The notes below the pieces were generated by a model, which was given only the letters and a program-made list of their open reading frames with translations, did not search any database and was not told the origin of the DNA. Below are positions 8,672 through 42,464 of a DNA stretch of 42,660 nucleotides, one piece after another (within the stretch, counting starts at the first letter, position 1; each line of letters begins with the position of its first letter). The DNA is taken from assembly GCA_017303995.1 (NCBI GenBank), contig JAFLBE010000037.1:1-42660 (forward strand), in the 5' to 3' direction. The position numbers and the translations under genes were made by a program. Source of the DNA: Bacteroidota bacterium (GTDB lineage: Bacteria; Bacteroidota; JABWAT01).

Positions 8672-9403
8672 TTATAAATCGAGATGGTACCTGAGGTGGT
8701 TTTCCATCATTTGTTCAAGAGTTAAGTACTGAGATTGACTCAACTGGCTCGCAGGTTGAGCCTGCTGATTGGGGTAAAGCCAGTGGCTGATCATGTCGAT
8801 CACCGGCGTTTCGACGGCATAATCCGATTTTTGGTTCCGCTGACAGGATTCACAAAAAATCTGTCCGACTGAAGCACTATATCCAACAGGTAAAGAACGG
8901 TCAAAATCACGAAAAGGTTTCCCGCAATTGCCACATTCGAAGGTGTTCGGTTCATATCCATTTAACTGGGATAGCCTGACGAAGAACTTCCCGAATAAAC
9001 CGGGGTGAAAAGTTGGGGCAGAATCAAGAGTTGTTAAAACCCGTGAAATGAGATTATAATGGGCAGAAGAATCATTATGGGGAACCTGAATTTTAAGCAT
9101 CCAGTCGAGAATCCGGAATCCGCCCATCATCCGGTCGTAGTCGGTCAGCAGTTGCTCCCGTTTAGCAAGCAAACTGGCCTGGGTCAGATTCTGAAGGTCC
9201 CTGCCTGATTTCAGATAAACCACAACTTCAAGTTCATTTAAAGGTTGAATAAGAAGTCCGTATCTGGAATTCTGTGATTTGGCACCTTTGGCAAGAATAG
9301 AAATCTTTCCGGCATCACGGGTTAGCAGAGTTGCAATTTTTGATGTGTCAGAATAGGGAATTGACCGGAGAACAATTGCCGGTGTGGTTAGGATTTCACT
9401 CAT
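8672..9403 (-). CDS. recO: DNA repair protein RecO
   Basis: A 243-aa recombination mediator that helps RecR load RecA on SSB-coated single-stranded DNA. The N-terminal OB fold shows the typical TPAIVLRSIPYSDTSKIATLL opening and AKGAKS. The C-terminal half has a four-cysteine zinc site, CGNC near residues 157-160 and CESC near 184-187. The length is standard. No clear ribosome binding site precedes the ATG, and only 17 bp upstream begins a 36-bp tandem repeat that must lie in the transcript leader or promoter. The protease gene follows 14 bp downstream. Confidence 0.93.
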   Translation of the reverse strand: MSEILTTPAIVLRSIPYSDTSKIATLLTRDAGKISILAKGAKSQNSRYGLLIQPLNELEVVVYLKSGRDLQNLTQASLLAKREQLLTDYDRMMGGFRILDWMLKIQVPHNDSSAHYNLISRVLTTLDSAPTFHPGLFGKFFVRLSQLNGYEPNTFECGNCGKPFRDFDRSLPVGYSASVGQIFCESCQRNQKSDYAVETPVIDMISHWLYPNQQAQPASQLSQSQYLTLEQMMENHLRYHLDL

Positions 9404-9420
9404 GGGAATTGCCAGGGACA

Positions 9421-9692
9421 GGTGACGAGGGACAAGGGACTAAAATACCAGTGGCAGGTGACGGGGGACGAGGGACTAAAATACCAGTGGCAGGTGACGG
9501 GGGACGAGGGACTAAAATACCAGTGACAGGTGACGAGGGACAAGGGACTAAAATACCAGTGACAGGTGACGAGGGACAAGGGACTAAAATACCAGTGACA
9601 GGTGACGAGGGACGAGGGACGAAAATACCAGTGACAGGTGACGGGGGACGAGGGACGAAAATACCAGTGACAGGTGACGGGGGACGAGGGAT
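9421..9692. repeat. 36-bp tandem repeat, about 7.5 copies, upstream of recO
   Basis: Seven full 36-bp units begin at 9421, 9457, 9493, 9529, 9565, 9601 and 9637, plus a partial unit from 9673. Each starts GGTGACGRGGGACRAGGGAC and ends near AAAATACCAGTGRCA; units differ only at a few purine positions. Internally the unit looks built from 7-bp steps (AGGGACA/AGGGACT), 36 being five heptamers plus one base. Because 36 is a multiple of 3, long frames run through it on both strands; these are not considered genes. Confidence 0.97.
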
Positions 9693-9721
9693 CTGAAAGC
9701 TGTTAGGAATAATGCAATACG

Positions 9722-9777
9722 AAACCACCCCGTCCCGAAAGCTTTCGGGACCACCCCTCCTTTGAAAAAGGAGGGGA
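9722..9777. repeat. Bi-hairpin dispersed element (copy 1)
   Basis: Contains two adjacent palindromes, GTCCCGAAAGCTTTCGGGAC (9732-9751) and CCCCTCC...GGAGGGG (9754-9776), bordered by ACCACCCC. It is an inverted relative of the element at 40941-41005. It lies in the 513-bp gene-free stretch between recO and the lipase gene. Confidence 0.8.
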
Positions 9778-9808
9778 ATCTGGCAGGTAAAGTTAGTAAG
9801 AAATTTTC

Positions 9809-9838
9809 CGTACAGCGTAAAACGTACACCGTAAAACG
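9809..9838. repeat. Heptamer tandem repeat CGTACAN/CGTAAAA
   Basis: Four consecutive 7-bp units alternate CGTACAG, CGTAAAA, CGTACAC, CGTAAAA. A further small palindrome, CCCGATATGAATCGGG (9863-9878), follows in the same gap before the lipase gene. Confidence 0.75.
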
Positions 9839-9916
9839 GTATTTTAAACTTATAACTTACCACCCCGATATGAATCGGGATCTTCGCTTCGCCCGACTTG
9901 TTGCCTGTCACTGTTT

Positions 9917-10876
9917 TCATTCCCAACGGAGAATTTCAGTTTCATCTTCGTGAATCCAGGAATGGGTTTCCGGCTTCCAGAATGATTTCAGGTGATTTAA
10001 AAAAGATCGTTTTTTCTTGATGGCTTTAAAAATTGCAGCTTTTTGGCGCATTGTTTCGTTGTAGCCAACCCGTATAAGATTGTCAAACTCAGTATAATCT
10101 GTCCAGTCAACATCCTGAACAGCGGGCCTGATAACCAAATCAGAATCTTCAAGCAACTTTGCCCGGTAATTGGATTGAAGAATGTCATCTTTTCTGATGA
10201 GGATTTCGAGGCCGGTTTCTGGGTGTTTTGGAAGGGGGGCCGGAACTTTTGAAACATCAACACCGATAATCACATTCATGCCATGGTGACAAAAGGGTCT
10301 TACCGGAATCAGATCTGTCACCTCTCCATCAACTAATAAATAGTTTTTATGCAAAACAGGTGGCATCATTCCGGTAATGGAAGCACTGGCGACTATTGCA
10401 GGAACAACTTTTCCGGAAGTAATTGCAACTGATTTACCGGTGATCAGATCGGTAGTCATTGCTGCAAACGGAATGCTGAGATCTTCAAAATTTGAGTTTT
10501 CAGGGAAGAAAAACCGGATAAGTTCTTCAAACCCTTTTCCATCGTAATAAAAAGGTTTGGTGAGAAAGTTTCCCTTCATCATCAGAACTTTAACAGATGA
10601 TTTCAGATTCGCCCAAAGGGATTCATCGTGCTTGCCGAAGGTGGAAATAAATTCGTTTTCTCTGAAACCATCCCAACGGAAAAGTTCACGGAAGGCAGCT
10701 TCCGTTTTTTCAGCGGATCCGGATTTTGCATAAACCCCGCCAACAAAAGCACCCATGCTGGTCCCGGAAATATGGGTGGGTCGAATTCCCATTTCTTCAA
10801 GAGCTTTTAGTACGCCAATGTGGGCAAAACCACGTGCGCCGCCGCCGCCAAGAGCTAAAATCAGTCGTTGTTTCAT
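9917..10876 (-). CDS. Patatin-like phospholipase (RssA-type)
   Basis: A 319-aa lipolytic acyl hydrolase of the patatin family. Numbered from the ATG at 10876: the oxyanion-hole loop GGGGARGFAH (residues 10-19), the nucleophile elbow GTSMG with Ser40, and the partner Asp183 in LLVDGEVTDLIPV. Domain order and length match bacterial RssA/YlbK-like members. The frame extends to 10909, but the family starts just before LILALGGGG, so the internal ATG is preferred. A basic C-terminal tail follows the catalytic domain. Substrate and location (cytosolic or peripheral membrane) are unknown. Confidence 0.92.
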   Translation of the reverse strand: MKQRLILALGGGGARGFAHIGVLKALEEMGIRPTHISGTSMGAFVGGVYAKSGSAEKTEAAFRELFRWDGFRENEFISTFGKHDESLWANLKSSVKVLMMKGNFLTKPFYYDGKGFEELIRFFFPENSNFEDLSIPFAAMTTDLITGKSVAITSGKVVPAIVASASITGMMPPVLHKNYLLVDGEVTDLIPVRPFCHHGMNVIIGVDVSKVPAPLPKHPETGLEILIRKDDILQSNYRAKLLEDSDLVIRPAVQDVDWTDYTEFDNLIRVGYNETMRQKAAIFKAIKKKRSFLNHLKSFWKPETHSWIHEDETEILRWE

Positions 10877-32157: not shown

Positions 32158-33069
32158 GTGCAAAAAAACTCGCCTTTTTATTCTTCTGGATTTCAGAGCG
32201 GAATCCTATTCACATTTTTTGTCGTCCTGGCTGCTTGTGATTCAAACTCTGACCCCGAACCAACCGGAGTTAAGCTGAGTCCGTATGGACAGGTGACTTC
32301 TGGTCTGATACCTGAACCTTCCGGCATTGTAAAAAGCCGAAAATTTACCGATGTCTTTTGGATTCACAACGACAAAGGCAACAATGCACGCATTTTTGCA
32401 ATAACCGGCAATGGTGAACTGATCAAACCTGCCGGAGTTTCCGGTTATGACGGCATACAGATCAAAAACTCAGATAATGTTGACTGGGAAGATATTACAA
32501 GTGATGATCAGGGCTTTCTTTACATTGCTGACCTTGGTAATAAGGACAGTGACCGTAAAGATCTTGCCATTTACAAGGTGGCTGAACCTGATCCGCTTAG
32601 TGCAGTTTCGGTGAAGTTTGAAGCAAAATATCCGGTTTACTATCCTGATCAGAAAGCCTTTCCGCCGGCTGCAGGGAATTATAACTGCGAAAGTATTTTT
32701 TGGTCGGATGGAAAGTTATTCGTCCTGACAAAGCACGAATCTGACGGAAATACCCGGCTTTACCGGCTGGATTCACTGAAAACTGACAAGCCTAACGGAC
32801 TTACCTTCATCGGAACCTATCCTGCCGGCGGAAAAGTAACCGGTGCTGATTGCAGTCTTGATGGAACCAGTCTGGCTCTTATTACCTATGGTGAAATCAG
32901 GGTTTATAAATCAGTTCCAGGAAGGAACTGGCTGGAAGGCAGTTTGGCGAAATTGTCACTTTCACCAATGAAATATGAGGGAGTTTGTTTTGCCGGGCAG
33001 GATACACTTGTCATAACCAACGAAGAGCGTTTTATTTATCGGGTTGCAGTTTCATCATTAAAACCATAG
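32158..33069 (+). CDS. Lipoprotein of unknown function, tandem paralogue 1
   Basis: A 303-aa lipoprotein starting at GTG. A signal peptide with a good lipobox (LAAC, Cys27) is followed by a beta-rich domain with WIHNDKGNNARIFAI, VDWEDI, LYIADLGNKDSDRKDLAIY, YPVYYPDQ and TRLYRLDSLKTDKPNGLT. The repeated strand-turn pattern reads like a beta-propeller. I do not recognise a named family. A close paralogue follows 27 bp downstream; together they form a two-gene unit. Role is probably extracytoplasmic binding or sensing; no enzyme motif is evident. Confidence 0.85.
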   Translation: MQKNSPFYSSGFQSGILFTFFVVLAACDSNSDPEPTGVKLSPYGQVTSGLIPEPSGIVKSRKFTDVFWIHNDKGNNARIFAITGNGELIKPAGVSGYDGIQIKNSDNVDWEDITSDDQGFLYIADLGNKDSDRKDLAIYKVAEPDPLSAVSVKFEAKYPVYYPDQKAFPPAAGNYNCESIFWSDGKLFVLTKHESDGNTRLYRLDSLKTDKPNGLTFIGTYPAGGKVTGADCSLDGTSLALITYGEIRVYKSVPGRNWLEGSLAKLSLSPMKYEGVCFAGQDTLVITNEERFIYRVAVSSLKP

Positions 33070-33096
33070 AAGAAAACACCATAAGAAAGGCCTTTC

Positions 33097-33993
33097 ATGT
33101 TTTCAGAATTGTTCATTTTTTCGCTTTCACTTTTCATTTTCTCCTGCAACGGTGGGAAAGAATCCCCAAATGATAAGAACAGAATTCCGCTCGTTGAGTA
33201 TTCCCGTGTTACAGCAAAAATGCTGGATGAGTCATCCGGAATCATAAAAAGCCGGCAACATGACAACACCTATTGGATTCATAACGATTCGGGAGATGAA
33301 GCCCGGATTTTTGCAATTAATAAAAACGGTGAACTCCTTTTTCCTGAAGGAAGTGATAACTACCGGGGGCTTTATATAACCGGTGCAACCAATGTTGATT
33401 GGGAAGATATTGCAAATGACGATCAGGGAAATTTATATATTTCTGACATGGGCAATAATGCGAATAAAAGAAAGGACATGGCAATTTACATTGTTAAAGA
33501 ACCTGATCCGCTGACCGTGACTTCTGTTCCTGCCGTTTCCCGTATTCCGGTTTATTATCCTGATCAGACAGAGTTTCCGCCAAAAAAAGATAATTTTGAT
33601 ACTGAAGCCATGTTCTGGACCGGCGGGAAAATCTACGTTATGACCAAACACAGGGCTGATACCTACACCCGCCTTTACCGCCTTGATTCTCTTAAAACTG
33701 ACAAACCGAACGGATTAACTTATTTGGGTACTTTTGATACCGGTGAAAAAGTTACCGCTGCTGACGTTTCACCGGATGGGAAGTCGATTGCAGTTTTAAC
33801 CTACAAGAATGTGTGGTTGTTTACCCAAACTAAAACTTCCAAATATTGGCTTGATGGTGAGGCCAAAATGTTACCAATTGCCGCCATTCAGGATGAAGGA
33901 ATTTGTTTTGACGGCGCAGATGTCCTGGTCATTACCAATGAACAGCGGAGTATTTACAGGGTTCCGGTGAAAGATCTGAGACCTGTAGATTAA
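33097..33993 (+). CDS. Lipoprotein of unknown function, tandem paralogue 2
   Basis: A 298-aa paralogue of the preceding gene. The signal peptide ends in a lipobox-like FSC (Cys17). The same blocks recur nearly unchanged: WIHNDSGDEARIFAI, VDWEDIANDDQGNLYISD, IPVYYPDQTEFPP, TRLYRLDSLKTDKPNGLTYLG and a closing VITNEQRSIYRVPV. AAAGG precedes the ATG. The two copies are similar end to end, so they arose by local duplication. Function unknown. Confidence 0.85.
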   Translation: MFSELFIFSLSLFIFSCNGGKESPNDKNRIPLVEYSRVTAKMLDESSGIIKSRQHDNTYWIHNDSGDEARIFAINKNGELLFPEGSDNYRGLYITGATNVDWEDIANDDQGNLYISDMGNNANKRKDMAIYIVKEPDPLTVTSVPAVSRIPVYYPDQTEFPPKKDNFDTEAMFWTGGKIYVMTKHRADTYTRLYRLDSLKTDKPNGLTYLGTFDTGEKVTAADVSPDGKSIAVLTYKNVWLFTQTKTSKYWLDGEAKMLPIAAIQDEGICFDGADVLVITNEQRSIYRVPVKDLRPVD

Positions 33994-35328: not shown

Positions 35329-37056
35329 ATGGAACTCAGCGCCGATTTAAGGTCGATTCAGCAGGCCAGAGATTTTCTGGAAATGGCTTCAAAAGCCCAG
35401 CAGATTTACAAAGAATTCACTCAGGAACAGGTGGATAAAATTGTAAAAGCAATGGCTGAAGCCGGTGAAGCTGCCAGTGAAAAACTGGCGAAGCTTGCCG
35501 TTGAAAATACCAAAATGGGTCGCTTCGAAGATAAAATCCTGAAAAATAAGTTTGCTACCCGGAATGTTTACGAATCAGTCAAAGATTTAAAAACGGTCGG
35601 GATTGTTCACAAATCTGCTGACGGAAAAGTGTGGGAAGTTGCCGAACCGATGGGTGTTATTGCAGCACTTATCCCAACTACTAATCCGACTTCAACGGCG
35701 CTTTACAAGGCAATTATTGCCCTGAAATCAAGAAATGCAATTGTCATGGCTCCCCACCCGAAGGCAATTTTGTGTACGCTTGAATCTGTAAATGTTGTGC
35801 GTGATGCTGCAGAACGGGCCGGTGCTCCCAAAGGACTTATTCATTGCATGACCGAAGTTTCCATTGTGGGAACTGAAGAACTCATGCGGCACAAATTGAC
35901 CAATGTGATTCTTGCAACCGGTTCAAGTGCCATGGTAAAAGCTGCACAATCAACCGGGAAACCTGCGTATGGCGTTGGTTCAGGCAATGTTCCCAGTTAT
36001 GTAGACCGTACTGCAAAATTAGACAAAGCCATCAGGGATATTATTTCTAGTTGTTCATTTGATAATGGAACCCTTTGCTCGACTGAACGATCCATTATTG
36101 TTGATGCACCGGTTAAAGCTCAGGTTTTAGACTTGCTGAAAAAATACAAAGCAGCCTTTCTTTCCGCTGAAGACACGAAAAAACTTGAGAAATACGCCGT
36201 TCCCGGCGGAAAACTAAACCCAGATGTTGTGGGTCAGCTTGCAGTAAAAATTGCTCAGGGCGCTGGAATTTCAGTTCCTGCAGATACACGGGTTCTGGTT
36301 GCCGAAATCCAGAAGGTTGGAAAAGAAGACCCGCTTTCGATGGAAACACTGTCGCCGATCTTGTCCTTTTTTACGGTGAATGGCTGGCAGGAAGGATGTG
36401 AACGGTCCATGCAGATTCTCAATTTTGGCGGAATCGGGCATACAATGTCACTTCACTCATCCGACGAAAAAGTAATCACTGAATTTGCACTTAAAAAACC
36501 CGCGATGCGTATTGTGGTGAATTCGATGTCATCACTTGGTGCAGTTGGTTTTACAACAAACCTTCCACCAGCCCTGACTTTGGGTTGCGGAACCTGGGGC
36601 GGAAGTATCACCGCTGACAATATCACACCGGTTCATTTGTTAAACATCAAACGAATCGCATTTGAAACACGGGAATATACGGCTAATTGGATGGGAACTT
36701 CTTCCACAAAATCCATTTCAGCAAAAGAGGAGACAACGGTGAGCAAAGTTAAACGGCCAGAGCCTTATCTGACTCCCTACAAACCTAAAGCAAACAGAGA
36801 AGTTGTTGAAGGTAAATCAACTCAAGTTCAACCGATTTTAACACCGGTTAGAACATCTGAACCCGTTCATTCCTGGATTGAAGAGATTGAAGACCGCATC
36901 CGTTCAAAAGCGGGAAATGTACATCCACCTAAAGAAGAAAAACCGGTTGCAAAACCTGAAATCCGGACCGAAGCAAAACCAGTAAAAGTGACCGAATCAC
37001 TTCCGATTTCTGATGACTCAATTTCAAATCTGATCAAAAAATTTTCTAAGTCCTGA
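35329..37056 (+). CDS. CoA-acylating aldehyde dehydrogenase (EutE/PduP-like) with C-terminal tail
   Basis: A 575-aa enzyme converting an aldehyde, CoA and NAD+ to acyl-CoA. Residues about 1-455 form the aldehyde dehydrogenase core: PTTNPTSTALYKAIIALKSR, ATGSSAMVKAA, the catalytic Cys250 in FDNGTLCSTERS, and LTLGCGTWGGSITADNI, closest to EutE/AdhE-type enzymes. Residues 460-575 are an added Lys/Pro/Glu-rich tail with two short amphipathic helices, near 513-527 (VHSWIEEIEDRIRSK) and 562-574 (DDSISNLIKKF), the layout expected of a microcompartment encapsulation peptide. No shell gene is in the window. AAGGAG precedes the ATG. Confidence 0.92.
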   Translation: MELSADLRSIQQARDFLEMASKAQQIYKEFTQEQVDKIVKAMAEAGEAASEKLAKLAVENTKMGRFEDKILKNKFATRNVYESVKDLKTVGIVHKSADGKVWEVAEPMGVIAALIPTTNPTSTALYKAIIALKSRNAIVMAPHPKAILCTLESVNVVRDAAERAGAPKGLIHCMTEVSIVGTEELMRHKLTNVILATGSSAMVKAAQSTGKPAYGVGSGNVPSYVDRTAKLDKAIRDIISSCSFDNGTLCSTERSIIVDAPVKAQVLDLLKKYKAAFLSAEDTKKLEKYAVPGGKLNPDVVGQLAVKIAQGAGISVPADTRVLVAEIQKVGKEDPLSMETLSPILSFFTVNGWQEGCERSMQILNFGGIGHTMSLHSSDEKVITEFALKKPAMRIVVNSMSSLGAVGFTTNLPPALTLGCGTWGGSITADNITPVHLLNIKRIAFETREYTANWMGTSSTKSISAKEETTVSKVKRPEPYLTPYKPKANREVVEGKSTQVQPILTPVRTSEPVHSWIEEIEDRIRSKAGNVHPPKEEKPVAKPEIRTEAKPVKVTESLPISDDSISNLIKKFSKS

Positions 37057-37239
37057 CCAGACGTTATGGGCAAGTTTGAAAAACGACACGGAGGACAAAA
37101 ACAAGTAACGACAAATATTTTACCAAGACTTCTTAACTTACGACAGACAATATAAATTAAAATGGAGACAATATATCACAATAAAATTGAAGCGGTACAA
37201 AGCTAATTGAATTGGGAATAAACAAAAAAAGCAGATTAT

Positions 37240-37557
37240 ATGAACTGGATTTATTTGATTTTAGCAGGATTTTTTGAAATCGGTTGGCCATTGGGACTAA
37301 AACTATCCCAGACTATGCCTTCTAAAATCATGGGAATATTAATTGCAATAATTTCAATGAGTCTAAGCGGATTACTTTTATGGCTTGCTCAGAAAACAAT
37401 TCCGATTGGGACTGCTTATGCTGTATGGACTGGAATTGGGGCAGTCGGCACTTTGATAGTTGGAATAGTTTATTTTGGTGACTCAGCAAGTATCTGGAGA
37501 ATGTTAGCTGCTCTATTGATTGTAATAGGTATTGTCGGACTAAAGTTAGCCCATTAG
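37240..37557 (+). CDS. Small multidrug resistance (SMR) transporter, SugE/Gdx-type
   Basis: A 105-aa four-helix membrane transporter, the sole gene of cassette 1. Glu13 in the first helix (FFEIGWPLGLK) is the proton and substrate site of the family; Trp16 and GTAYAVWTGIGAVGT match the SugE/Gdx branch, which exports guanidinium, rather than the QacE/EmrE drug-export branch. It works as a dual-topology homodimer. No strong ribosome binding site; the 176 bp between the cassette boundary and the ATG are gene-free and may hold a promoter. A guanidine riboswitch was looked for there and not found. Confidence 0.92.
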   Translation: MNWIYLILAGFFEIGWPLGLKLSQTMPSKIMGILIAIISMSLSGLLLWLAQKTIPIGTAYAVWTGIGAVGTLIVGIVYFGDSASIWRMLAALLIVIGIVGLKLAH

Positions 37558-37593
37558 AAATAGAGAATGTATTGTTCTATGATAAAAAAACCA

Positions 37594-37723
37594 GCCCATA
37601 ACAGCAGCTACCCGCAAGCAGGGGTTTCGTGCATCGTAGGACAGTAAAGTAGTAAATTTGAAGAGCAGTTCTTCGTAGGAAATTCAGTGGTAAAAATCCC
37701 TGCCTGCGGGTAGCTGCAAACCG
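37594..37723 (+). other. attC site of cassette 1
   Basis: About 130 bp. The left arm runs GCCCATAAC then AGCAGCTACCCGCAAGCAGGG; the right arm ends CCCTGCCTGCGGGTAGCTGC, AAACC and G^TTATGTG. Nineteen of 20 bases in the inner arms pair, with an unpaired offset next to the core sites, as in attC hairpins. Core sites are CCATAAC (37596-37602) and GTTATGT (from 37723). Confidence 0.88.
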
Positions 37724-37750
37724 TTATGTGCCACTTAAAAACAGCTCCGA

Positions 37751-38569
37751 ATGAAACAGATAGTATTATATTTCCTGATTTTATTGACTTTTGATTTGTT
37801 TGGTCAAAAGATTGATTCGATTAACCTTAAATCCTACTATGGTGATTTTGTAGGCGGATTTAGTATTTACGATTTAAAGACTGATAATTATATTCAATAC
37901 AATCCGGAACATTGTAAAAAAAGGTTGTCACCTTGCTCAACATTTAAGATTCCAAACTCATTGATTGGGTTGGAAACGGGTGTGATTGCTGATACTGGAT
38001 TTATAATCAAATACGATAGTATTCTTCATCCAAAAGATTCGTTTCAATTGGCAAATGAGCCATTTAAACATTGGTATGAAGATTTATCTTTGAAAAGGGC
38101 ATTTAAATATTCTTGTGTTTGGTATTATCAGGAGTTGGCAAGGAGAGTTGGAAAAGAACAAATGCAAAAGAAAGTTAATGATTTGGATTATGGAAATAAA
38201 GATATATCAAGCGGATTAGATACTTATTGGCTTTGCGGTTCAATCCAGATTTCAATAAATGAACAAATTGAGTTTTTAAAAAAATTATATTTAAATAAAT
38301 TACAAGGATTTTCAGATAAAAATATTAATGCTGTAAAGAGCATAATGCTTTATGAGACTAATCCTGATTACAAATTGTATGGTAAAACGGGGACTGGCGA
38401 TTGTTGGGATAATAAAGTATTAGGTTGGTATGTAGGGTTTGTGGAGACTGAAACAGGAACGAAAATATTTGCAATGAATATAATTGTAAATGATTTCGGG
38501 GATTTAAAGAATAATTTTCGGATTGAGTTAACAAAGAAAATATTGAAAGATTTTAAAATAATAAAATAA
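37751..38569 (+). CDS. Class D (OXA-like) beta-lactamase family protein
   Basis: A 272-aa serine hydrolase with a signal peptide (residues 1 to about 19). Class D motifs are complete and in order: Ser63-Thr-Phe-Lys66, Ser121-Cys-Val123, Tyr147-Gly-Asn149, Trp160 (the residue that protects the carbamylated lysine) and Lys212-Thr-Gly. Length is normal for OXA enzymes. It should hydrolyse beta-lactams, though activity is inferred. It is the only gene of cassette 2, is markedly AT-rich compared with the flanking genes, and lacks a clear ribosome binding site. It begins 27 bp after the cassette boundary. Confidence 0.93.
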   Translation: MKQIVLYFLILLTFDLFGQKIDSINLKSYYGDFVGGFSIYDLKTDNYIQYNPEHCKKRLSPCSTFKIPNSLIGLETGVIADTGFIIKYDSILHPKDSFQLANEPFKHWYEDLSLKRAFKYSCVWYYQELARRVGKEQMQKKVNDLDYGNKDISSGLDTYWLCGSIQISINEQIEFLKKLYLNKLQGFSDKNINAVKSIMLYETNPDYKLYGKTGTGDCWDNKVLGWYVGFVETETGTKIFAMNIIVNDFGDLKNNFRIELTKKILKDFKIIK

Positions 38570-38571
38570 GC

Positions 38572-38697
38572 GGCACATAACACGTGGTATAAAAAATTGC
38601 CGGGACATTAGGTTATTTAAGGGTTTTAGCCCGCATCAAGTTCTTAACAGCTTGATAGGGAATCGCCCGCAAACGGCAACTTTTCATACCACCAACG
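38572..38697 (+). other. attC site of cassette 2
   Basis: About 126 bp. It opens GGCACATAAC; inner arm blocks GTGGTAT (38584-38590) and TTGCCG (38597-38602) pair with CGGCAA (38674-38679) and ATACCAC (38686-38692). It ends CCAACG^ATAACC; the sequence after G is flanking chromosome, not a TTRRRY core, because this is the last cassette. Confidence 0.82.
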
Positions 38698-38719
38698 ATA
38701 ACCAAACCATGAGGAAATT

Positions 38720-39697
38720 ATGAAAGCAATTATTCCGGTAGCCGGAATGGGAAGCCGGTTACGGCCCCATACGTACACCCTTCCAAAAGTGATGCTCTCT
38801 GTTGCCGGAAAACCCATCATCGGACACATTTTCGACAAACTGATTGAAGATGGCATTACCGAAGCCACTGTCATCATTGGCTACATGGGCGAAGTCATCG
38901 AAAAATATCTTCGGTCCCATTATTCAATCCCGATCGATTTTGTTGAACAAACAGAATTATTGGGTCTGGGTCACTCGATCTGGGTTGCACAACGGACGTT
39001 CAGTGATACCGAGCCGGTTTTCATTATTCTTGGCGATACGATTTTTGATGTTGATCTGAAAAAAGTGTTCAACTCAAAAGATTCATCACTGGGAGTGAAA
39101 TATGTTGAAGATCCCCGTCGTTTTGGTGTTGCCGAGGTTGAAAATGGCGTCATCAAAAAGTTGATTGAAAAACCGGAAAAACCAACTTCTCATCTGGCAA
39201 TGGTTGGGTTGTATTACATCACTAAACCGGCATTACTTAAAGAATCATTGAATTATCTTGTTGAAAATAACGTCAGAACGAAAAATGAATATCAGTTGAC
39301 TGATGCGCTTCAGCGGATGATCGAAGGTGGACATACTTTTACCACCTTCAATGTTGAAGGCTGGTATGATTGCGGAAAACCCGAAACTTTGCTTTCAACC
39401 AACCAGGTGTTACTGAGTATGAAGGCAGAAAAAGCTGAGCTTACCGGGTCGGTTGTCATTCCGCCGGTTTTCATACATCCTTCCGCACAAATTACACATT
39501 CTGTTATTGGTCCGAATGCATCTATTGGTGAAAATGCAGTTATAAAAAATTCCGTCATCAGAAATTCGATCATTGGTTCTGAAGCACGTGTAGACGCAAC
39601 GTTACTTGAAGAATCTATTGTTGGGAACGGTGCCTTGATTGCCGGCCGTTTCAGAAGAGTAAATGTTGGTGATATGACTGAACTTGATTTTAAATAA
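38720..39697 (+). CDS. Sugar-1-phosphate nucleotidyltransferase with left-handed beta-helix tail
   Basis: A 325-aa enzyme activating a sugar-1-phosphate with a nucleoside triphosphate. The nucleotide-binding start is GMGSRLRPHTYTLPKVMLSVAGKP; Asp in ILGDTIFDVD binds metal, and GLGHSIWVA and KLIEKPEKP are typical. The last 80 residues are hexapeptide repeats (IGPNASIGENAVI, IRNSIIGSEARV). The closest pattern is glucose-1-phosphate thymidylyltransferase or UDP-sugar pyrophosphorylase, not resolved further. GAGGAAATT precedes the ATG. The cassette insertion ends 22 bp before the start codon. Confidence 0.9.
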   Translation: MKAIIPVAGMGSRLRPHTYTLPKVMLSVAGKPIIGHIFDKLIEDGITEATVIIGYMGEVIEKYLRSHYSIPIDFVEQTELLGLGHSIWVAQRTFSDTEPVFIILGDTIFDVDLKKVFNSKDSSLGVKYVEDPRRFGVAEVENGVIKKLIEKPEKPTSHLAMVGLYYITKPALLKESLNYLVENNVRTKNEYQLTDALQRMIEGGHTFTTFNVEGWYDCGKPETLLSTNQVLLSMKAEKAELTGSVVIPPVFIHPSAQITHSVIGPNASIGENAVIKNSVIRNSIIGSEARVDATLLEESIVGNGALIAGRFRRVNVGDMTELDFK

Positions 39698-39728: not shown

Positions 39729-40871
39729 ATGTCTTTTTTGTTTACATCGGAATCGGTCTCTGAAGGCCATCCGGACAAGGTGGCTGATCAGATTTCTGAT
39801 GCCATCCTCGATGAAATGCTGAAAGGTGACCCAAGTTCACGTGTTGCAGTTGAAACCCTCGTTACCACCGGGTTGGTGGTCATTGCAGGTGAAGTGACGA
39901 CCAAAACTTATGTCGATTTTCAGGACGTGGTCAGAAAAACGATTAAAAGAATTGGCTACACCAAATCTGAATATAAGTTTGAAGCTGATTCCTGCGGAAT
40001 CCTGAATGCCATCCATCAGCAGTCACCTGATATTTCTCAGGGAGTTGATACCGGTGGAGCAGGTGATCAGGGAATGATGTTCGGGTATGCCTGCGATGAG
40101 ACTGATAGTTACATGCCTGCACCGATTTACTGGGCACATAAACTGGTTGAAAGACTGGCCTACATCCGTAAAAATGAATCCATCATGAATTATCTGCGTC
40201 CTGACTCAAAAAGCCAGGTTACCGTTGAATATTCTGAGCGTGGAAAAATCAAACGCGTTCACACCGTCGTGATTTCTACTCAGCATGATGGTGACGTGAA
40301 TCAGGCAACGATTAAAGAAGATTGTATCAAAAATGTAATTGCTGAAGTTATTCCTGCAAAATATCTTGATGATAAAACGATTTATCACGTGAATCCGACC
40401 GGCCGTTTTGAAATTGGTGGTCCACACGGTGATTCTGGTCTGACAGGACGTAAAATTATCGTGGATACCTACGGTGGCCGTGCTGCACACGGTGGCGGTG
40501 CTTTTTCAGGAAAAGATCCATCGAAAGTTGACCGTTCTGCAGCCTATGCTGCCCGTCATATTGCGAAAAACGTGGTTGCTGCCGGTCTTGCAAAAGAATG
40601 TCAGGTTCAGGTTGCCTACGCTATCGGAGTTGCCCAACCCGTTTCTATTCTGGTTGAAACTTTCGGAACCAACACCGTTCCAGAGGATAAAATCTCAAAG
40701 GCAATCATCGAACTTTTCGATATGACACCGAAGGGAATTATTGATCGTTTGGATCTGAAAAAGCCAAAATATCTAAAAACCGCTGCCTACGGACACTTTG
40801 GCCGCAACGGCGAAGAATTTACCTGGGAAAAACTCGACTTCGTTGAAAAATTGAAGGCTGCGGTGAAGTAA
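39729..40871 (+). CDS. metK: S-adenosylmethionine synthetase
   Basis: A 380-aa enzyme making SAM from methionine and ATP. All signature regions are present: [21 protein letters not shown] (residues 4-24), [12 protein letters not shown] and the phosphate-binding [21 protein letters not shown] precedes the ATG. It lies 31 bp after the nucleotidyltransferase and 276 bp before ahcY on the same strand. No SAM riboswitch is evident in its short leader. It closes the methyl cycle with ahcY. Confidence 0.97.
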
Positions 40872-41147: not shown

Positions 41148-42464
41148 ATGTTAGATGCTGAAGTAAAAAAACTGCCGTTCAAGGTGAAAGACATCACGCT
41201 GGCAGAGTGGGGCCGGAAGGAAATTCAACTGGCAGAAGCAGAAATGCCCGGATTAATGGCTCTCCGTGCTGAATATGGCGCAACCAAACCTCTCAAAGGT
41301 GCCCGTATTGCCGGATGTCTGCACATGACCATCCAAACAGCCGTTTTAATTGAAACACTTGCTGAACTGGGTGCTGATGTTACCTGGTCTTCCTGCAATA
41401 TTTTCTCTACCCAGGATCATGCTGCTGCTGCAATTGCGGCTGCCGGAATTCCGGTTTATGCCTGGAAGGGTATGAACGCTGAAGAGTTCGACTGGTGTAT
41501 TGAGCAAACCCTGTTTTTCCCTGACGGACAGCCACTGAATATGATTCTTGACGATGGCGGTGATCTTACCAATCTCGTACTTGATAAATATCCTGAGCTT
41601 TCTGCAGGAATTCGTGGTCTTTCAGAAGAAACCACTACCGGTGTTCACCGTTTATATGAGCGGATGAAAAACGGAACACTCACCATGCCTGCGATCAACG
41701 TGAATGATTCGGTAACCAAGTCAAAGTTTGACAATAAATACGGTTGCCGTGAATCTTTGGTTGATGCTATCCGCCGTGCAACTGATTTGATGCTTGCTGG
41801 AAAAGTTGCTGTTGTTGCCGGATTTGGTGATGTGGGTAAAGGTTCCGCTGAATCTCTCCGTCATGCCGGTGTTCGGGTTATCGTAACTGAAATTGACCCG
41901 ATCTGTGCACTTCAGGCTGCGATGGAAGGCTTTGAAGTTAAGACGATGGACACTGCCGTTCTCGAGGCTGATATTATTGTAACCGCTACCGGAAACAAAG
42001 ACATCGTAAAACCCCGTCACTTCGAGAAAATGAAGGATAAGGCTGTGGTTTGTAACATCGGTCACTTCGATATTGAAATCGATATGGACTGGCTGAACAA
42101 CAAATCAGGTGCAAAGAAACTTGAGATTAAACCTCAGGTTGATAAATACACCCTGCCTAACGGCCGTGATGTCATCGTTCTTGCAGAAGGTCGTTTGGTA
42201 AACCTTGGTTGTGCTACCGGACACCCATCTTTTGTGATGTCGAATTCTTTTACCAATCAGACGATTGCCCAGATCGAACTTTGGCTGCATTCTGATAAGT
42301 ACGAGAATAAGGTTTATACCCTTCCGAAACATCTGGATGAAAAAGTTGCCCGTCTTCACCTGGCCAAACTGGGTGTTGAACTCGAAACCCTCTCAACCGA
42401 TCAGGCTGAATACATCGGTGTGACTGTTGCTGGTCCGTACAAACCGGAATATTACCGGTATTAA
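41148..42464 (+). CDS. ahcY: Adenosylhomocysteinase
   Basis: A 438-aa NAD-dependent SAH hydrolase that removes S-adenosylhomocysteine, the product inhibitor of methyltransferases. Motifs: [31 protein letters not shown], the NAD-binding [32 protein letters not shown] and the terminal KPEYYRY. AAGGAAA precedes the ATG. Its leader contains two palindromic repeats but no recognisable SAH riboswitch. An intrinsic terminator follows the stop. Confidence 0.97.

Follow-up and report, generated by a model that had tools for sequence, protein, structure and literature searches.

The class D (OXA-type) beta-lactamase gene described here lies in the second of two integron gene cassettes which stand between genes of a host operon, on a contig in which no integron integrase gene was found. 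Very probably the two cassettes were placed there by an integron integrase at an attG-like site and are now read through from the host operon, with the OXA protein giving resistance. This reading builds on the observed cassette anatomy, the exact insertion, the empty site in a related genome, the foreign base composition, the clade of the protein and the resident integrase of the host. The analysis covered a stretch of 42,660 nucleotides, referred to as the window, together with the remaining contigs of the same draft genome (127 contigs in total). The first-pass annotation had already recognized a class D gene on a cassette; it did not include the SMR partner, the precise point of insertion within a housekeeping gene run, the empty counterpart of that point or the resident integron, which is separate. 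Class D enzymes, attC cassettes and CALIN/attG insertions are all of kinds already known; the present case is set apart by its clean empty site, its placement in an operon and its two resistance-type passengers.

Two gene cassettes and their insertion site

The insertion comprises 1634 bp between an ALDH gene and a run of NTP-transferase, metK and ahcY genes, all on the same strand. The features concerned are as follows.

35329..37056, forward strand: acetaldehyde-dehydrogenase-type ALDH, host gene upstream (TIGR02518, 3.3e-181, slightly under the cutoff)
37063..37064: left insertion junction, CCAGACG / TTATGGGC, compared with the empty site CCAGACTGTAACCAAACC in the same-genus genome G016
37064..37723, forward strand: gene cassette C1, 660 bp; its start TTATGGGC is complementary to R'' GCCCATAAC at 37594-37602
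37240..37557, forward strand: SMR exporter, SugE/Gdx-like, 105 aa (PF00893, 9.2e-23)
37594..37729, forward strand: attC1, with R'' at 37594-37602 and the crossover between G37723 and T37724
37724..38697, forward strand: gene cassette C2 (OXA), 974 bp; its start TTATGTGCC is complementary to R'' GGCACATAAC at 38572-38581
37751..38569, forward strand: class D (OXA-type) beta-lactamase gene, 272 aa, with ATG start and signal-like N-terminus
38572..38703, forward strand: attC2, with R'' at 38572-38581 and the crossover between G38697 and A38698
38697..38698: right insertion junction, CCAACG / ATAACCAAACCATGAGG, target triplet G/AT
38720..39697, forward strand: host NTP-transferase (RmlA-long-like), first gene downstream
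39729..40871, forward strand: host metK, methionine adenosyltransferase (TIGR01034, 6.4e-173), downstream in the same direction
41148..42464, forward strand: ahcY-like adenosylhomocysteinase, named from its translation by eye, downstream in the same direction

In both cassettes the start bases, preceded by a G, match the reverse complement of the cassette's own R'' without exception (exact R''/R' complementarity of 9 bp in C1 and 10 bp in C2), which is what the circularization of an attC cassette requires; the OXA cassette begins with TTATRTGYCACTTAAAA. The bottom strand of attC1 folds at -32.0 kcal/mol (z -6.2 against shuffled sequences), and that of attC2 folds modestly better than its shuffles (z -2.4). 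The strict attC signature, which has an inner stem of 8 bp, is present at cassette 1 and is expected 0.09 times in a random sequence of the window length; a match on the minus strand is the same element read backwards. The second site escapes the strict filter because its inner stem is 7 bp. Each unit has an ORF followed by an attC with R''/R' complement and hairpin, as integron gene cassettes do, and the sequence predicts that both would be mobile. Exactly two cassettes are present. The cassette context proposed for the OXA gene in the first-pass annotation is thus borne out by true attC ends, by the hairpins and by an empty site in a genome of the same genus.

Across the insertion, the window reads CTGACCAGACG, then the 1634 bp and then ATAACCAAACCATGAGG. 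In G016, whose NTP-transferase is 99% identical to that of the host, the empty site reads ...CTGACCAGACTGTAACCAAACCATGAGG..., with 29 bp from the ALDH stop to the ATG of the NTP-transferase. The insert is exactly the two cassettes and no host sequence was lost: when rejoined, the window site is also 29 bp long and differs from G016 by two bases, at the join. The ALDH is the same neighbor in G016, G011 and G006, and in the latter two genomes both genes are adjacent and in the same order, with the gap uninterrupted. The G/AT target is allowed by the relaxed GNT rule for integron integrases and agrees with the GAT cleavage reported at secondary sites (PMC10127599).

Off-target insertion is one of the three origins that have been proposed for CALINs (PMC8618304), and attG insertions have been described by Loot et al. 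(2024, Nat Microbiol), as cited in PMC12901181 and PMC11023631. The window is like both in having attC cassettes at a non-integron chromosomal site, a G/AT target that fits GNT and no adjacent intI, and an uninterrupted homologous site exists elsewhere; these features served here as the criteria for such an insertion, in place of the formal definition of IntegronFinder. It departs from them in belonging to a little-sampled class of Bacteroidota, in having an empty site within the genus and in lying inside a housekeeping gene run.

The passenger of cassette C1 resembles the SMR family (SugE/Gdx, Smr, integron qac) in its length and its PF00893 domain. Among the NCBIfam models, Smr (8.5e-40) and SugE (9.2e-29) both matched under their curated cutoffs, and the protein stays below the cutoff of every curated subfamily, which distinguishes it from the named ones. 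Since the host already has a separate SMR on contig C24, which is 50% identical to the cassette protein and has counterparts in the sister genomes, the cassette SMR is an addition. Genes of the SMR family (qac) are familiar passengers of integrons.

Two further features were seen elsewhere in the window. An ORF at 9396-9926 on the minus strand consists mostly of a repeated RPPSPVTGI-like unit and is probably a DNA tandem repeat, not a gene. At 32158-33993, two adjacent paralogous genes, with blocks about 72% identical and 915-918 bp apart, represent a tandem duplication.

Class D gene and its relatives

The ORF at 37751-38569 encodes, judged by its motifs, a secreted protein of the class D serine beta-lactamase type, which would be expected to hydrolyze beta-lactams. 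The class D motifs PCSTFK (with Ser63 and Lys66 in the ORF numbering), YSCV, YGN, YWLCGS (containing the Trp-Leu pair) and YGKTG can be read directly and in this order, and the N-terminus carries a hydrophobic, signal-like stretch, MKQIVLYFLILLTFDLFGQ, as judged by eye. The first-pass annotation, in which all the active-site motifs, the Trp that stabilizes the carbamylated lysine and a signal peptide were named, agrees with this. A transpeptidase domain (PF00905) was found by Pfam at 2.7e-30, and the top PDB matches are class D enzymes (E about 1e-43), the nearest solved proteins by sequence being B. subtilis YbxI/BSU-2, OXA-48-based chains and Cpin_0907. With the NCBIfam model bla_class_D_main the protein scored 1.4e-69 and 234 bits, under the cutoff of 250 bits, which is a naming threshold and not a mechanistic criterion; the claim is therefore limited to class D-type by motifs and tree. 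An AlphaFold model made from six sequences had a pLDDT of 56, too poor for geometry.

In a tree of 46 proteins, the OXA-type protein was placed inside a Bacteroidota clade of nine rows with support of 100/95, apart from OXA-10, OXA-48, OXA-23, OXA-72 (OXA-24 type), OXA-58, OXA-1, OXA-9 and OXA-209 and from BlaR1. Its placement with class D proteins, away from the sensors, answers the check that the first-pass annotation had proposed, i.e., a tree with OXA families and BlaR/MecR sensor domains. The nearest genes in GTDB contigs are all from Bacteroidota (Bacteroidetes GWE2_42_24 78%, Bacteroides ihuae 76%, the rest 57-72%), and the best matches in a draw of 394 genomes from the host phylum were 77, 71, 64 and 57% identical. 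Identity to clinical OXAs and to enzymes of the plasmid collection is about 27-41%. The gene had been called divergent, which holds in comparison with the clinical OXAs but not within Bacteroidota, where relatives of 57-78% exist; by tree and identity the protein appears as an ordinary member of a phylum-level Bacteroidota clade. The host, which had been taken for an FCB bacterium, does belong to Bacteroidota, since in G242, a genome assigned to the host's phylum, the flanks of the OXA gene are those of Bacteroides ihuae.

No close copy was found by tblastn in 72,556 plasmids (best match 40%), and the gene had no match by blastn in E. coli genomes; the phage collection gave no match either, and a scan of IMG/VR with the family alignment found no relative. 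The first-pass annotation supposed the gene to be already packaged for capture by clinical-type integrons; in the plasmids and E. coli genomes searched, it was not seen as a passenger of mobile or clinical (class 1-type) integrons. The host class is represented in the collection by four genomes (the host, two of the same genus and one of another genus in the same family), and a class D match is absent from the three others. OXA-209 (Riemerella pRA0726) and the class D gene of Myroides (p63039) are likewise mobile in Bacteroidota and have resistance genes nearby, but they are only 37-40% identical to the window protein and sit on a separate branch of the tree.

With the OXA families the protein shares all catalytic motifs, the size and the signal-like N-terminus, whereas its own Bacteroidota clade and the invariant extra Cys beside the motifs (PCSTFK, WLC) set it apart. 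Three cysteines, C62, C162 and C218, are invariant across the clade and lie beside active-site motifs (PCSTFK, WLC and KTGxGxC). The position of C62 is Ala in most other class D proteins viewed, and a Sporomusa plasmid protein likewise has PCSTFK. A disulfide or redox link near the active site is possible, as far as the alignment indicates.

Foreign origin of the cassettes

The AT-rich, foreign codon use that had been ascribed to the OXA gene was confirmed when its composition was compared with that of the host. Its GC content is 29.2%, compared with a mean of 43.5% for 31 window genes (z -6.4), and that of the SMR gene is 2.6 standard deviations below the window-gene mean. The Karlin codon bias relative to the host is 0.56 for OXA and 0.64 for SMR, whereas the host's genes average 0.26 and reach 0.42 at most; short genes score higher on this measure. 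The OXA genes of the relatives are also AT-rich (29-36% GC).

The copy of the OXA gene in Bacteroidetes GWE2_42_24 (L016, 3337-4203) has 82% nucleotide identity within the gene. It has 22 of the 27 bases of the leader between crossover and ATG in common with the window, as well as the 14 bases that directly follow the coding sequence (TAAGCGGCACATAA); past this 14-nt tail, its attC looks decayed, and no integron integrase was found in the GWE2_42_24 genome. Because this gene shares leader and tail to this extent, the comparison suggests that the OXA cassette belongs to a travelling cassette lineage. The leader of the Bacteroides ihuae copy resembles it less closely (2 in 1000 random placements), a similarity that is no more than suggestive.

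Resident integron

The host has an integron of its own. Its intI, on contig C55, scored 435.9 bits against a cutoff of 265; none was found on the window contig, and all three sister genomes have an intI above the cutoff. The resident integron occupies C55:1-4180 (L022) and C41:1-9000 (L093), with an intI of 322 aa and a divergent array on the opposite strand, and many of the proteins encoded by its cassettes look secreted or lipoprotein-like. The attCs are near-uniform on C55 and more diverged on C41, and further related attCs occur on C41, C13 and C66.

The attCs of the window were considered as members of the resident type and rejected, as the model built on resident attCs (R1) does not find them. 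Since they are of another type than the resident array, the two cassettes are likely to stem from another source and to have been placed off-target, either by the resident integrase or by a visiting one. Elsewhere in the genome, the search for attC2-like sites gave only one weak, apparently decayed stretch, in which part of such a site was found after an ORF at C56:15698-15761 (L096) with 72% identity; these are probably the remains of a cassette that lies outside the array.

Alternative explanations

The two cassettes could once have stood last in a longer integron array and have been left behind by a chromosomal rearrangement or by loss of intI. Rearrangement is another of the three origins proposed for CALINs (PMC8618304), and pieces of the resident array do lie on several contigs of this genome. 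However, both flanks of the insert are the host's own and lie next to each other in G016, where only two bases differ at the join; G011 and G006 show the same order of genes across an unbroken gap, and the attCs are unlike those of the resident array. The exact empty site largely refutes such a history already, and we regard it as highly unlikely. An error of assembly or binning, by which a fragment of another organism was joined into the contig, might be suspected in a draft genome in which the insert has a foreign composition. It is scarcely credible, because a random misjoin would not hit the integron crossover points at both joins and leave two flanks that match a sister genome.

As to the protein, it might be a penicillin-binding or sensor-like one, becoming acylated but not turning over usefully, and have been retained for another role. 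The class D score below the NCBI cutoff, the 207 bits obtained with the BlaR1 model and the unusual invariant cysteines could be read in this way; the BlaR1 score is, however, far below the cutoff of 400 bits and behind that of bla_class_D_main. In addition, the ORF is stand-alone and lacks the N-terminal membrane metalloprotease part of BlaR1/MecR1 sensors, no BlaI/MecI partner gene lies beside it (the neighbors being SMR and NTP-transferase), and BlaR1 is placed elsewhere in the tree. Throughout the clade (alignment of six members, relatives 56-78% identical) the catalytic residues, the Trp among them, do not vary, and the closest solved proteins are beta-lactamases. A BlaR sensor was rejected because of the domain composition and the position in the tree, and the broader possibility of a protein without useful turnover appears unlikely, though less so than the two explanations above.

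Expression and biological meaning

Insertion by an integron integrase at the non-integron, attG-like G/AT site in the 29-bp gap remains the preferred explanation. Against it stand the class D score below the curated cutoff, the modest fold of attC2 and the draft state of the genome, in which the contig of the window stops about 4 kb beyond the element. The SMR and OXA cassettes may have come together or in succession, and the resident intI of the host family could have made the insertion. Within the insert, neither promoter patterns (Bacteroides-type and sigma-70) nor a terminator pattern were found above chance, and in the empty state the flanking genes of the same strand are 29 bp apart. For these reasons read-through is the simplest reading, and both genes are most likely expressed from the host operon, with the ALDH gene as the probable source of the transcription entering the cassettes. 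The SMR protein would, from what is known of its family, export a small cation of the guanidinium type or a quaternary ammonium compound. The OXA protein would be exported to the periplasm, where beta-lactams would acylate Ser63 and the carbamylated Lys66, held by Trp160, would drive deacylation, leading to resistance.

The window offers a clean natural case, from a little-sampled lineage of Bacteroidota, of cassettes that sit in a host operon and not in an integron, and a genome of the same genus has the empty site. It also presents a class D family of this phylum that is already in cassette form, with no sign, in the plasmids and E. coli genomes searched, that it has entered plasmids or clinical integrons. 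It is conceivable, although we hold this only tentatively, that promoterless resistance-type cassettes gain constitutive expression in a housekeeping operon and are thereby stably fixed outside the integron, and that the OXA lineage moves between distant Bacteroidota. If this is true, off-target insertion would serve as a stable means of fixing cassettes, and of having them expressed, away from the integron.
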